Shown in pieces: positions 3,921 through 53,552 of a DNA stretch of 64,000 nucleotides (its first letter is position 1; each line of letters begins with the position of its first letter). A program made the translations under genes and the position numbers. The stretch lies in assembly GCA_013360295.1 (NCBI GenBank), contig JABWCL010000021.1, positions 1 through 64,000 on the forward strand. The letters are read 5' to 3'. The notes below the pieces were generated by a model. That model was given only the letters and a program-made list of their open reading frames with translations. It was not told where the DNA came from and searched no databases. The DNA comes from Ignavibacteriaceae bacterium. Lineage in GTDB: Bacteria > Bacteroidota > Ignavibacteria > Ignavibacteriales > Ignavibacteriaceae.

Positions 3921-4229
3921 CTTTGATCTTTTTCAATAGCGAAAAATATTTAGTCACTTAATATAATAGGATAATAGCTGAGACGGAACACAGGTGACGC
4001 GGATGAAATGGTTGACCACAGATATATTAACGCAGATGCGGCGTCTGCTCTTCAGGAATCAGGTTATTTGGGATATGTGATTGAAGTCACGTTTCTCGCT
4101 CAATCTTGGTGATAATTCGTAAAAAATCAGATCGTAATCGGAAAATTCTTTAAAATTTTCAGATTACAATCGGAAAATTTAGCTATATTTTCATATTGAA
4201 ATCCTATTATTTATAAACGTTGAATTTTT
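3921..4229. other. Intergenic region with a degenerate genomic repeat and promoter-side repeats
   Basis: No gene is visible in these 309 bases. Around 3995-4032 are fragments of the type GACGCGGATGA and TTAACGCAGATGCGG. A related fragment (GCGCGGATGACGCAGATT) occurs near 57842, so this may be a decayed dispersed repeat. The last 100 bases are AT-rich and hold the direct repeat listed separately. Confidence 0.5.
4127..4180. repeat. Direct repeat upstream of the AAA/DUF4143 gene
   Basis: Two 22-bp copies, at 4127-4148 (TCAGATCGTAATCGGAAAATTC) and 4159-4180, differ at a few positions and share AATCGGAAAATT exactly. They are spaced 32 bp apart, three turns of helix, and end about 50 bases before the ATG at 4230. 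Each also has AAAATT/AATTTT flanks. This is the position and spacing of a pair of operator sites for the following gene. Confidence 0.65.
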
Positions 4230-5363
4230 ATGATAACACGATTAGCTCAGAACCGAATTATTGAATCTCTTTTTAAGGGAAAAGCGATCATTATTTACGG
4301 CGCCAGACAGGTAGGTAAAACCACAATCGCTAAGAGTATTCTGGAAAAATTCGGTGATTCAGGCAGGTATTTGAACTGTGAAACTTTAACGGTAGAACAG
4401 GCTTTGAGTGAGCCTGAACCGGAAAAGATAAAAAAGTTTTTGGGAGATTATCGGATAATCGTGCTTGATGAAGCGCAGCATATTCCCGATATAGGGCGCA
4501 AAATAAAACTGATTGTAGATGAAATAAAAGATGTACAGATAATCGCGACGGGTTCATCCAGTTTTGATATTGCCAACCGGACAACAGAGCCTATGACGGG
4601 CAGGGTATTCCATCATACTATCTTTCCGCTATCATTAAACGAGATAAAAGATGATGCCGGAGGTTTGCTGGGTGTGGAAGCTAAACTTGAAAATCTCCTG
4701 ATCTACGGTTCTTATCCCGAAGTATATCTTTCAAATGAGGAGGCGGCACGTACAATTCTGAGTGAATTAACATCATCATACTTGTTTAAGGACCTGTTCA
4801 GGTATGAGGGAATTAAGAAATCCTCGATGCTTAAAAATCTGCTGATGTCGCTTGCATTTCAGGTGGGAAGCGATGTTTCATATAACGAACTTGGGACGAG
4901 GCTCGGGCTGAACTACGCAACCGTGCAAAAATATATTGACCTTCTGGAACAGAGTTTTGTAGTTTTCCGGTTGAATTCGTTCTCCAGGAACCTGCGAAAC
5001 GAGTTGGCGAAGTCAGTGAAAATATATTTTTATGACAATGGTGTTAGAAACGCCCTGGTGAACAATTTTAATCCTCTTAATATTCGGGATGACATCGGTG
5101 CTTTATGGGAAAATTTTTGCGTGACTGAGAGGCGGAAAATGAACGCAACCAATAATAACATGGTGAATTCGTATTTCTGGCGCACCTACGATCAGAAGGA
5201 AGTTGATTATGTGGAAGAAGCGGGAGGTAAGATCACCGGATTTGAATTCAAGTACTCAGAAAAACAGAAGGTTAAAACCCCGGTAAAGTTTACTGAGACT
5301 TATAACGCTGAAGTGAAAAAAATTGACAGGAGTAATTACTGGGAGTTTTTGATTCAGCTCTGA
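4230..5363 (+). CDS. AAA-family ATPase with C-terminal DUF4143 domain
   Basis: A 377-residue protein of the widespread archaeal-type ATPase/DUF4143 family, usually a single mobile gene of unknown role. The P-loop is GARQVGKT (24-31), Walker B is IIVLDEAQ (about 85-92), and a sensor motif IIATGSSS follows. The middle third resembles a winged-helix region (YNELGTRLGLNYATVQKYIDLLE). The last 80 residues carry QKEVDYVEEAGGKITGFEFKYS, which looks like the D...ExK core of PD-(D/E)XK nuclease folds found in this family. It has no operon partners and is less GC-rich than its neighbours. A second family member lies at 51777-53015. Function is unknown; genome-defence or toxin-like roles have been proposed for relatives. 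Confidence 0.85.
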   Translation: MITRLAQNRIIESLFKGKAIIIYGARQVGKTTIAKSILEKFGDSGRYLNCETLTVEQALSEPEPEKIKKFLGDYRIIVLDEAQHIPDIGRKIKLIVDEIKDVQIIATGSSSFDIANRTTEPMTGRVFHHTIFPLSLNEIKDDAGGLLGVEAKLENLLIYGSYPEVYLSNEEAARTILSELTSSYLFKDLFRYEGIKKSSMLKNLLMSLAFQVGSDVSYNELGTRLGLNYATVQKYIDLLEQSFVVFRLNSFSRNLRNELAKSVKIYFYDNGVRNALVNNFNPLNIRDDIGALWENFCVTERRKMNATNNNMVNSYFWRTYDQKEVDYVEEAGGKITGFEFKYSEKQKVKTPVKFTETYNAEVKKIDRSNYWEFLIQL

Positions 5364-49569: not shown

Positions 49570-50679
49570 CTAATACCATTTATAAATTTTAGCGCCGATG
49601 AAAGTGATTATCGACCCAAGTAATGTTAGAATCACGACTCCCGGCAGCACCTCTCCAAGTCCGGCACTCTCAATAAAAATACTCCGCATATCATCAGCGA
49701 GTATCGTAAGAGGAAGAATTTTAATATACGGAATTAGCCACTCAGGGAAGTTGTGGTAACTGAAGAACACACCTGAACAGACGGTCATCGGCAGAGTAAT
49801 CGCGTTGATCAAGCCGTTGCCGACCTGAGATTTAGCGGTGCGCGATGAAGTAAGAATAGCGATTCCGCTGAAACAGATATTTCCCGCGAGGAATACAAGC
49901 AGCAGCGCGATAATACTTCCGGTCACTTCCGTAGAAAAATAAGCCAATGCGAAGAGATATAATATAAGTGACTCAAAAAAACTTAAGATAATTCTGCCCG
50001 AAATTACGGAAAGTAAAAACGCGTTTTTATTCATCGGAGTCGCTACCATCCGTCGCAACAGCTTTTTAGATCTGCGTTCTATCAAGGTAAAGCTTATGCC
50101 CCACATCGCGGAAGACATTATACCCATTGCTATAAGTCCGGGTAAGAAAAAGTCTATATATCGCAAACCCGGGGTTTCAAGCTTTTTAATCGAAGGATTA
50201 ATCGAATTACGAACCGAAAGTTTATTCGTAAGTAATAAATATGTAGTATATGCGTCGCTGTTGCCGTGATCAAAGTGGTAGGAAACACTATCGGAATAGT
50301 CAACAATGATAAGTGTTGCTTTTCCTTTCTTGATCATTTCTTCAGCGCTGCGGTAATCCGCGGGGATAAATTTAACTTTTGTAAATCCTTCTTCTTCACT
50401 TCCAAACCGGGCGGATCTGACGTTTTTTTCCTGCTCAGAAATTATCTTGTAACCATTTGCCTCGAGTCCGTTGAACAAATAACCAACCGATTTATTTGTA
50501 TAATGTTGTACCCAGGCAACATTCTTTTGCTGTTCTCTTTCGCCTGAAAACGCAATACCCAGCACCCAGGCCATAGCTATCGGGAAAGCGAATGTCCAGA
50601 ATAAAACTTCGGGTTCCCGGTAGAACTCACGGAACTGAGCCAGTAACAATAATCTGAATTGCCGAAAGAAGTTATTCAT
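49570..50679 (-). CDS. ABC-2 type transporter permease
   Basis: A 369-residue permease with one N-terminal membrane segment (about 22-44, PEVLFWTFAFPIAMAWVLGIAF), an extracytoplasmic domain (about 50-175) and five or six later segments (from FFLPGLIAMGIMSSAMWGISF). The last 70 residues include LPLTILADDMRSIFIE, common in daunorubicin/YadH-type exporters. Its ATPase gene ends inside the first eight bases of this gene, so the two are translated together. Substrate unknown. Confidence 0.88.
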   Translation of the reverse strand: MNNFFRQFRLLLLAQFREFYREPEVLFWTFAFPIAMAWVLGIAFSGEREQQKNVAWVQHYTNKSVGYLFNGLEANGYKIISEQEKNVRSARFGSEEEGFTKVKFIPADYRSAEEMIKKGKATLIIVDYSDSVSYHFDHGNSDAYTTYLLLTNKLSVRNSINPSIKKLETPGLRYIDFFLPGLIAMGIMSSAMWGISFTLIERRSKKLLRRMVATPMNKNAFLLSVISGRIILSFFESLILYLFALAYFSTEVTGSIIALLLVFLAGNICFSGIAILTSSRTAKSQVGNGLINAITLPMTVCSGVFFSYHNFPEWLIPYIKILPLTILADDMRSIFIESAGLGEVLPGVVILTLLGSIITFIGAKIYKWY

Positions 50680-51595
50680 TCAGGCTCCTGCCGGTGAGAG
50701 TAATAAAGAGGTCGTCAAGTGTCATCTTTTTACATTCAAGCGAGCGCAGAGTAATTTCCCGCTGTTTCATTTCAGTAAGAAGACCCGGGAGATAATTAAC
50801 AATGTCGTTCACAATCAATTCCCATTTAATGCCGAGATAATCATATTTCAGCAGGTTGTCTTTCGGAAATATTGCGGGATCAATCTCGCGGTCTGTGCCG
50901 AATTCAATTTTTTCGGATTTATTAAATCTGGCCAGCAACTGATCCACTGTACCCTCTGCGAGGATTTGCCCCTTATCCATAATAATTATTCTCTCGCACA
51001 GGAACTCAGCCTCATCCATATAGTGAGTGGTGAGGATCATCGTCATACCGCGTTCCTGCCGAAGGCGGTGCAGTATCTCCCATACTTCACGCCTGGCAGC
51101 AGGATCAAGCCCGGTTGTTGGTTCGTCAAGAAGTATTATTTGTGGTTTATTAAGAAGCGCTATGCCAAGCGCGAGTTTTTGTTTCTGCCCTCCGGAAAGA
51201 TTCTTTGTATATGCAGAAGATTTCTCCTCCAGACCGACAAGGTGCAGAACTTCACTTATCTTAATGTGGCTTTCGTGATAAAATGACGCGAATAGTTCGA
51301 GCGTCTCCTTTACCGTGAGTTTCTCTATAAAATGTGTCTCCTGCAGCGATATGCCAAGCAGTGACCTTAGGCGGGCAGGATTTTCTTTCCAGGCAGAATT
51401 GTCTATCCGGATCACTCCTGAATCGGGGAACTGAATGCCTTCAATCATTTCCATCATTGTGGTTTTCCCGGCTCCGTTCGGGCCGAGAAGAGCCACGAAT
51501 TCACCGGGGTAAATATTAAAGGATAACTCACGGACAGCCCTGACTTCCTTGAATGCTTTGCTTACAGATGTAACCTGAATAATCGGATGTGTCAT
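50672..51595 (-). CDS. ABC transporter ATP-binding protein
   Basis: A 307-residue ATPase with Walker A GPNGAGKT (38-45), signature LSGGQKQKL, Walker B IILLDEPTTGLDP and switch His in LTTHYMDEAEFLCERI. The C-terminal 80 residues are a regulatory extension, closing with LDDLFITLTGRSLNE. Each key motif is intact. It is the first gene of a two-gene exporter operon; its start lies about 105 bases from the direct repeat at 51701 of the AAA/DUF4143 cassette. Confidence 0.92.
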   Translation of the reverse strand: MTHPIIQVTSVSKAFKEVRAVRELSFNIYPGEFVALLGPNGAGKTTMMEMIEGIQFPDSGVIRIDNSAWKENPARLRSLLGISLQETHFIEKLTVKETLELFASFYHESHIKISEVLHLVGLEEKSSAYTKNLSGGQKQKLALGIALLNKPQIILLDEPTTGLDPAARREVWEILHRLRQERGMTMILTTHYMDEAEFLCERIIIMDKGQILAEGTVDQLLARFNKSEKIEFGTDREIDPAIFPKDNLLKYDYLGIKWELIVNDIVNYLPGLLTEMKQREITLRSLECKKMTLDDLFITLTGRSLNE

Positions 51596-51700
51596 AAACG
51601 TTGAAGCAAAAATAGTAAACTTCTTTCGCCGAAAAAAATGCCCGCTTACGGATTTACAGCTACCACCTGAATACTCCTGAGGCTACGAGAAAACAGCTGG

Positions 51701-51748
51701 TGTAAAATCATCCACTTGGTGGTTGAATTTCAGCCATGAAATGGTTAT
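51701..51748 (+). repeat. Left copy of direct repeat framing the AAA/DUF4143 gene
   Basis: This 48-base copy begins TGTAAAATCATCCACTTGG and ends GGTTAT. Compared with the right copy at 53043-53090 it differs at a few positions and has a much weaker inverted repeat (four mismatches in the 16-bp arms). It overlaps the upstream end of the ORF region of the ATPase gene, so it may also be part of its promoter. Confidence 0.75.
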
Positions 51749-51776
51749 CTTTCAGCAGTTAATATTATTGATTATT

Positions 51777-53015
51777 ATGATACCGAGACACATTACCCCC
51801 AAAATACACCTGGCGTTAAAACACCGGCCGATCGTTTATATTCAGGGCGGCAGGCAGACCGGAAAGAGTACGCTCGCGAGAAATCTTTTAAGCAGGAATT
51901 ATAAAGCGGAATATATCTCGCTAGACGACCTTGCCCTCCTGGCTGTTGTTAAAAATGATCCAAAAGGATTCCTCAACAGCTACCCGGGGAACCTGATAAT
52001 TGACGAAGTCCAGATGGCGCCTGACTTGCTGATCGCAATAAAGCATCTTGTTGATCAGGACAGAAAGCCGGGACGATTTGTCCTTACCGGTTCTTCAAAT
52101 CTTTTTACACTGCCGAAAATATCAGAATCTCTCGCGGGGAGGGTTGATATATACAGGCTTCTGCCCTTCGCCCAATCAGAAATAGACGGGAAGAGTTTTC
52201 ATCTTATTGATGAGCTGTTCAGAGGAAGGACAAAAACTCTGTTTGATATAAAAGGGAAGGGGAAACAGAATATACTCAAAAGAATAATCCGGGGTGGTTT
52301 CCCGGAGATTGTACTGAACAGAAATACATCGCTTACTGCCCGGTGGTTTAATTCTTATGTAACAACTCTGCTCCAAAGGGACGTGAGGGATATCGCCAGC
52401 ATTGATAATCTGGAAGTTTTCCCGCAGCTTCTCGGAATATTAGCTTCCCGATCCGGGGGCCTGACCAATTTCGCGGATATATCAAGAGAGACGGGAGTAC
52501 CGCAGACAACCCTAAAGCGATATATCTCAATACTGAGGATGGCTTTTATCGTTGAACTGGTTCCGTCCTGGTCGAATAAAATGGAGCAGAGGTTTGTTAA
52601 GGCTCCGAAAATATTTTTCAACGATAGCGGTCTGCTGAGTTATTTGTGCGGTTATACCGAGAAACGCTTTGATATGGATAACAGGGCGCTGGGTATGGCA
52701 ATGGAAAACTTTGTTTTTGCTGAATTGGTTAAACTGCAAAGCTTCAGTGATAACTTTTTTACAGTTTACCATTACCGCACTCATTTGGATGAGGAGATAG
52801 ATTTCATACTGGAAAGAAACGACGGCAGTATTATCGCGGTTGAAGTGAAGGCCTCAGAAACGATAAAGCCTGATATGGTAAAACATATCAAATCATTCCG
52901 GAGTAAATACCCGGACAAGTTTTTATCAGGAGTAGTTTTTTATTCGGGCAAGCAGGTGATACCGCTCGGAGATAAAATGTACGCTGTTCCGGTTGATGCC
53001 TTATGGGGAGGGTAA
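51777..53015 (+). CDS. AAA-family ATPase with C-terminal DUF4143 domain (second copy)
   Basis: A 412-residue family member related to the gene at 4230. P-loop GGRQTGKS (24-31), Walker B NLIIDEVQM, FVLTGSSN as sensor, LAGRVDIYRLLPFAQSE, and a DUF4143 part with the LxRDVRDIA motif. The end has the nuclease-fold-like EIDFILERNDGSIIAVEVKAS. The ATG at 51777 is preferred (MIPRHITPK is the family start); an upstream TTG would add 18 hydrophobic residues and overlap the repeat. The gene is on the opposite strand to its neighbours and lies between two copies of a direct repeat, so it appears to be an inserted cassette. Confidence 0.86.
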   Translation: MIPRHITPKIHLALKHRPIVYIQGGRQTGKSTLARNLLSRNYKAEYISLDDLALLAVVKNDPKGFLNSYPGNLIIDEVQMAPDLLIAIKHLVDQDRKPGRFVLTGSSNLFTLPKISESLAGRVDIYRLLPFAQSEIDGKSFHLIDELFRGRTKTLFDIKGKGKQNILKRIIRGGFPEIVLNRNTSLTARWFNSYVTTLLQRDVRDIASIDNLEVFPQLLGILASRSGGLTNFADISRETGVPQTTLKRYISILRMAFIVELVPSWSNKMEQRFVKAPKIFFNDSGLLSYLCGYTEKRFDMDNRALGMAMENFVFAELVKLQSFSDNFFTVYHYRTHLDEEIDFILERNDGSIIAVEVKASETIKPDMVKHIKSFRSKYPDKFLSGVVFYSGKQVIPLGDKMYAVPVDALWGG

Positions 53016-53042
53016 AGGCGGATCAGAGGGGATCGGCGCTAT

Positions 53043-53097
53043 TGTAAAATCATCCACTTGGTGGCTGAATTTCAGCCACCAAGTGGTTATTTTTACA
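53043..53097 (+). repeat. Right copy of direct repeat; perfect 33-bp hairpin
   Basis: The inner arms CCACTTGGTGGCTGAA (53054-53069) and TTCAGCCACCAAGTGG (53071-53086) are exact complements around one T. TGTAAAA (53043-53049) and TTTTACA (53091-53097) extend the symmetry. It lies 27 bases after the ATPase stop codon and 20 bases before the end of the acetyltransferase gene, so it could also end transcripts from both sides. Confidence 0.85.
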
Positions 53098-53117: not shown

Positions 53118-53552
53118 TTAGTAGAGTTTTTTTATCATTCTATGGTGAGGAATGGTTACTTCTGTAAAACCCTCTCCGGCACATTCATAGCCCAGCGATT
53201 TGTAAAACTCAACGGCAGTATCGCGTGAGTGGAGGCTGATCAATTTAAAGCCGTGCTCTGCCGCGTACATTTCCGAATGACCCACAAGCACTTTACCAAT
53301 ACCCCTTCTCTGAAAATTTTCATCAACGGCAACCTGCCTCATTTTGATTTCATCAGCGGATAATGGTCTCATAAGCAGGCATCCGGCCAGCTTGCCATCA
53401 ATGAAAGCGTTAAAATGTATTTCATCTTTTTCGGCGGCAAGTTGCTCCGGAGTGTACACAAGGCCCAGAGGCTTACGGAGAACCCTGTCACGGAGAGCAA
53501 CCTCGGCCTCATATTCCGGCGAACCGTGTTTAATGATCCTTATTTCCGTCAA
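53118..53552 (-). CDS. GNAT-family N-acetyltransferase
   Basis: A 144-residue acetyltransferase, ElaA/small GNAT type. The acetyl-CoA loop is QRRGIGKVLVGHSE (motif A, Q/RxxGxG/A), preceded by MRQVAVDENF, and motif B is AVEFYKSLGYECAGEGFTEVTIPHHRM. The start is TTG, overlapping the stop of the upstream membrane-protein gene by TTGA. Substrate unknown. It ends 20 bases from the right repeat of the AAA cassette. Confidence 0.88.
   Translation of the reverse strand: MTEIRIIKHGSPEYEAEVALRDRVLRKPLGLVYTPEQLAAEKDEIHFNAFIDGKLAGCLLMRPLSADEIKMRQVAVDENFQRRGIGKVLVGHSEMYAAEHGFKLISLHSRDTAVEFYKSLGYECAGEGFTEVTIPHHRMIKKLY

Follow-up and report, generated by a model that had tools for sequence, protein, structure and literature searches.

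A spaced dyad array tied to the PDC-S01 (DUF4143) gene family, a putative operator and candidate seam of a one-gene cassette

In the window, i.e. the whole stretch of 64,000 nucleotides of an Ignavibacteriaceae genome analysed here, a DUF4143 gene on the plus strand lies between two copies of a repeat, opposite to both of its neighbours, an ABC transporter ATPase gene and a GNAT acetyltransferase gene on the minus strand (Table 1). A repeat search of the window returned a direct repeat of 57 nt at 51696-51752 and 53038-53094 (88% identity, spacing 1342), and the enclosed protein matches the Pfam families DUF4143 (145.8 bits, cut-off 28.1) and AAA_14 (99.2 bits, cut-off 27), both above the gathering score. 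This confirms what had been claimed in a sequence-only reading, namely that repeats in the same orientation enclose exactly one AAA/DUF4143 gene on the strand opposite to its neighbours.

Table 1. Features of the locus, in window coordinates
Feature	Position	Strand	Remarks
ABC transporter ATPase, left neighbour	50672..51595	-	kept at the gene-less site of G001
Left (upstream) array copy	51696..51752	+	direct repeat
DUF4143 gene (AAA_14 + DUF4143), PADLOC PDC-S01	51777..53015	+	ATG 51777, stop 53015
Right (downstream) array copy	53038..53097	+	exact dyad 53062-53078 between two half-sites; hairpin core 53054-53086
GNAT acetyltransferase, right neighbour	53118..53552	-	kept at the gene-less site of G001

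The two copies differ in their folding. The right copy, in which the repeat search also found an inverted repeat (53043-53069 and 53071-53097), is a near-perfect 15-bp hairpin of 33 nt extended by seven outer pairs, TGTAAAA/TTTTACA, and folds at -34.5 kcal/mol (z -10), while the left copy folds more weakly (-21.8 kcal/mol, z -3.2). With up to three mismatches, a 19-mer from the repeat matches three times in the window, at two exact sites and in the opposite arm of the right hairpin, where shuffles lead to an expectation of 0.03. An Rfam search of the 64-kb window gave no family at the gathering score. The hairpin of the window corresponds to a half-site, a dyad and a half-site of the array unit in the orthologue set, which reads about TGGTTGATnATCATCCAnnnnn. 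The dyad is 17 bp long, TGGNTGA-NNN-TCANCCA, and recurs every 22 bp; the left copy has one dyad exact on the 12 fixed bases (51720-51736) and a degenerate one with two mismatches (51698-51714). The right hairpin with its extended ends and the decayed left copy, as described in the sequence-only reading, are thus both there, but a tandem series of 17-bp dyads, spaced 22 bp, describes the repeat better than a single hairpin does.

A search of the source genome matched seven more DUF4143 homologues, several of which, on inspection, have private repeats at 32-33 bp spacing just 5' of the start codon. For this reason I scored the upstream regions of 178 DUF4143 genes. These loci were confirmed in a profile search with alignment A2, 80 of them being named records; a search of genome contigs with the single protein confirmed no relative. 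Among the named records the orthologue set extends over Ignavibacteria, Nitrospirae, Planctomycetes, Acidobacteria, Verrucomicrobia, Pseudomonas and others. In 93 of the 178 genes the upstream periodicity beats all 40 shuffles made for each, with a best period of 22 in 37 genes, 32 in 30, 33 in 13 and another period in the remaining 13. Loci with runs of N, such as L122, or with only a short upstream sequence were set aside here. Period 22 then comes out best in 63 of the 84 orthologue-set loci, in none of the 90 other DUF4143 genes and in 7 of the 430 neighbour-gene controls, whereas period 32/33 is best in 51 of the 90 other DUF4143 genes and in 15 of the 430 controls (Fisher 5e-54 and 2e-32, respectively, indicative only, as the rows are related and the values ignore kinship). 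Neighbouring genes lack such arrays, and the array and the gene family belong together. Two changes suffice to account for both spacing classes on a 173-protein tree (91 labelled rows). Orthologues from many bacterial phyla share the upstream array; of 83 clade loci, 75 have the dyad (up to two mismatches allowed) in the 150 nt before the gene, mostly in a fixed register relative to the ATG (-16, -38, -60 and -82). The window's own copy scores 8.4 at period 22 and does not beat its shuffles. The similarity of arrays tracks overall protein similarity and not the recognition helix in particular; covariation of that helix with the array is weak and unspecific (partial 0.11 and 0.14), and I do not count it as support. 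A second DUF4143 gene of the window (locus L005, about 4127-5360; match 4284-5273, ORF start about 4230) has an array of its own at 4127-4190, with 32-bp spacing. Two divergent DUF4143 genes (L082 and L092) show strong upstream arrays with a period of 23 bp, a possible third spacing class.

A sigma-70-type promoter is embedded in the array of roughly half of the orthologues. A TTG-17-TA...T motif whose -10 ends 3-9 nt before the ATG is present in 38 of 79 clade genes, in 11 of 97 other DUF4143 genes and in 3 of 472 controls; in 30 of the 38 the site is at exactly 6 nt, always with a spacer of 17. By eye, consecutive dyads often hold the -35 and the -10, and a bound array would then presumably keep the promoter shut. 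The position of the promoter also suggests that the mRNAs of the clade would be leaderless. An array over the gene's own promoter, as would be expected of an autorepressor, is thus found in 38 of 79 clade genes; the window's own copy (L003) departs from the -10/6-nt/ATG geometry. The array is likely an autorepressing putative operator.

The right copy, with its strong hairpin, T-rich tails on each side and position between convergent genes, is terminator-like on both strands and may well terminate transcription here. However, that it belongs to a bidirectional terminator common to many genes is extremely improbable: the 16-mer core, allowing two mismatches, occurs at only these two sites in the whole 4.46-Mb assembly, both at this DUF4143 gene, and relatives carry the array upstream of the gene. 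Since the whole genome holds no other copies, the repeat is not a shared terminator, and I rejected an intrinsic terminator family; the genome search proposed in the sequence-only reading, in which occurrence at many unrelated gene ends would have spoken against a cassette, found the repeat at this one gene. Alternatively, the array could act in RNA as leader hairpins and not as a DNA operator, as its units are palindromic and the hairpins fold well. In the 38 clade genes with the -10 only 3-9 nt before the ATG, however, transcription would begin at or close to the ATG and the RNA would omit the array, which makes this alternative very unlikely.

The encoded protein fits a known defence candidate. 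It matches PADLOC model PDLC04790 of PDC-S01 nearly over its full length (residues 1-410, E 4.2e-148), and the paralogues tested also match PDC-S01 models. An AlphaFold model (mean pLDDT 90.3, pTM 0.91) consists of AAA+ (about 1-130), winged-helix (about 207-262) and PD-(D/E)XK-like (about 300-411) domains, with residue 1 being the I at 51780 and the domain limits set by eye from secondary structure. D341 and E355 are invariant and K357 nearly so in alignment A1, while in alignment A3 E355 and K357 are invariant and D341 is conserved at 90% or more; I take these residues to be the D...ExK of a PD-(D/E)XK motif, and they show the conservation expected of one. Around the presumed recognition helix, P241, T244, L245, R247 and Y248 are invariant in 40 orthologues. 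Over residues 1-291 the best solved folds are the archaeal ATPases SSO1545 and PABY2304 (2fna and 2qen), with Z 15.4 and rmsd 5.1 over 255 residues for 2qen and Z 14.2 and rmsd 4.6 over 253 residues for 2fna; the match barely covers the C-terminal nuclease-like domain. In the available excerpts of PMC12988326, PDC-S01 is described as an ATPase plus PD-(D/E)XK and ranked fourth among the commonest defences of prokaryotes, validation being pending for most such candidates, and no array, promoter or cassette behaviour is described there. Among titles and abstract openings retrieved by family names and accessions, I found none on arrays, promoter or mobility of PDC-S01, and nothing on how it works.

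The presence/absence comparison of related strains proposed in the sequence-only reading led to genome G001 of the same genus. Here the ABC ATPase (76% identity) and GNAT (59% identity) genes are adjacent with 253 nt between them, the DUF4143 gene is absent and one repeat is left, as expected for a cassette bounded by direct repeats. This array copy is identical to the window's right copy at 46 of 50 bases (the best of 1000 shuffles reaches 30) and to the left copy at 42 of 50; it is so degenerate that the exact dyad pattern misses it, and it comes from a single genome. The event must be old, as the neighbours are only 59-76% identical, and loss in G001 and gain in the window are both compatible with the contrast.

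Arrays at both ends of the gene are present in the window and in genomes G066, G003, G009 and G034. At a score of at least 30, a duplicate of the upstream array stands behind the gene in 8 of 183 loci, including two orthologous ones (L088 and L090), and in none of 296 control genes. A search for the 32-class dyad with up to two mismatches matched 9 of 59 genomes and revealed array-gene-array in G003. Among the best 14 direct repeats listed, those of L112, L110, L087, L149, L159 and L048 score 19.8 or more and are not counted as array copies, because the upstream member lies outside the array; in L110 and L112, direct repeats 63-64 nt long lie outside the array and enclose both array and gene. 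Where the members of a close pair have unrelated neighbourhoods, homology extends from the array edge to the stop codon (L114/L137, -61 to +0, 90%; L042/L045, -88 to +1, 88%; L121/L135, -41 to +1, 86%). Other close pairs are colinear far beyond the unit (L167/L169, and L059/L071 downstream), as vertical descent predicts. Other genes are found at the arrays as well. In G034, genes for an NgoFVII-type endonuclease and a C5 methylase abut the downstream array exactly on its outer side (L287, 4147-6296), a pair absent from the colinear region of G009; at another locus of G034, three genes with GmrSD_N, AAA/DUF3696 and YoeB-like domains lie between the gene and a second array, with none at this place in G009. 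In G326, a YhcG/DUF1016 nuclease gene (L229, 3950-5261) follows an array with a 72-bp stretch that is 100% identical to one fronting a DUF4143 gene in G194, which belongs to another genus. The array edge is a real boundary.

Arrays are also found alone. A pattern of 1.5 units (up to two mismatches) matched 26 of 391 genomes of the class, compared with 1 of 391 for the reversed control. With one locus judged per genome, the gene accompanies the array in ten and a pseudogene does so in one (L210); the other 15 have no DUF4143 gene within 1.5 kb, and 13 of these 15 genomes have no homologue anywhere at E 1e-60. The solo arrays, one of which (L200) is weak, lie in convergent, tandem and other intergenic gaps, in no constant relation to a gene start. 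It could be argued that arrays are only operators, with downstream copies being tandem duplications, solo arrays the remains of ordinary gene decay, and sharp edges a result of fast flank divergence. The missing downstream copy at most loci points in this direction, and so does a genus (G110, G176 and G163) in which a solo array was inherited and is decaying; the gene scraps beside 2 of the 15 solo arrays and the pseudogene at L210 fit plain deletion. However, 13 of the 15 have no scrap (tblastn, E<=0.01) though most arrays are near-perfect, in the pairs with 88-90% identity homology stops within a few nucleotides of the array and the stop codon with near-random flanks beyond, and a restriction-modification pair is positioned at the array edge. 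I therefore regard an operator-only role as rather unlikely. Alternatively, the DUF4143 protein may itself be a nuclease/recombinase or homing enzyme that cuts a resident solo array, the break being repaired with the array-gene unit. This would agree with the conserved catalytic-type residues D341, E355 and K357, with the combination of winged helix and AAA+ in one chain, and with solo arrays being common in genomes without the gene. I nevertheless find it decidedly doubtful, as Pfam and NCBIfam searches matched the protein to no known recombinase family, and host recombination over repeats of 50-90 nt could do the same. The solo array of G110, G176 and G163 (L235, L236 and L237) is in the same place in three species with flanks that have diverged to about 79-84%, and may be under some constraint.

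On balance, the repeat is probably the cognate operator-like array of the PDC-S01 gene and also the recombination seam of a one-gene cassette. As array and gene family are associated, and G001 has a single array without the gene, the array looks like both the switch of the gene and the seam at which it is gained or lost. This reading is supported by the family association, the clade-specific spacing, the promoter geometry in relatives, the G001 site, the duplicated and solo arrays and the breakpoints at array edges. The PDC-S01 protein would probably bind the dyads via its winged helix, and when bound could occlude the embedded sigma-70 promoter, resulting in autorepression. The unit of array plus ORF, with the array as its left edge, may move or be lost as a one-gene cassette, and recombination between array copies would link the flanked state (the window, G066, G003, G009 and G034) to the solo state (G001 and others). 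Such array-to-array recombination, inserting or removing the gene, would account most simply for the flanked, upstream-only and solo states, with plain deletion explaining some cases. The single-gene mobile cassette of the sequence-only reading is supported in part by the G001 site, the recurrent array-gene-array order, the solo arrays and the breakpoints at array edges elsewhere; it needs revision in that the repeats are not neutral ends but the family's own upstream array with its embedded promoter, and in that a downstream array within 250 nt is present in only 1 of 83 clade loci, most relatives being without one.

Parts of this arrangement are known from other systems. The C-protein operators of autoregulated restriction-modification controllers are likewise palindromic, lie over the gene's own promoter and belong to a mobile defence gene; in contrast, the presumed regulator here is the ATPase-nuclease itself, and the spaced operator array coincides with the unit boundaries. 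Integron cassettes have a recombination site beside a single gene and solo sites elsewhere, whereas here regularly spaced dyads are tied to one gene family. RAYT/REP elements also have one gene flanked by palindromic repeats and solo repeats elsewhere, with a Y1 transposase and many REPs; I rejected this likeness, as the gene has no Y1 transposase domain and the genome only two repeats. A more far-reaching version, which I consider unlikely, would make PDC-S01 a one-gene mobile element that addresses itself: the winged helix would read the private array, as autorepressing promoter and as integration/excision site, and its AAA+-nuclease would drive cassette exchange, recruiting restriction-modification, GmrSD and toxin genes between or beside arrays. 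A subfamily-tied array with fixed spacing and an embedded promoter offers a concrete target for tests of binding, regulation and mobility, and the link between array and gene could explain the spread and turnover of a single gene in defence islands.

On mobile replicons, viral contigs gave no exact array and no relative by the A2 profile, and ten phage records have weak matches to the protein (at best 33% identity). No upstream array was seen at TT_RS11170 of HB27 (32% identity). According to the available excerpt of PMC4406477, the DUF4143 gene TT_P0211 is 6.6-fold up in Thermus when a plasmid is present; I could link it to no array. Matches occur in 402 plasmid records; one Thermus thermophilus plasmid copy scores 8.8 and a Rhizobium copy 8.6 at period 22, values that shuffles elsewhere reach, and a Pseudomonas mendocina plasmid copy has, by eye, an array-like upstream stretch.
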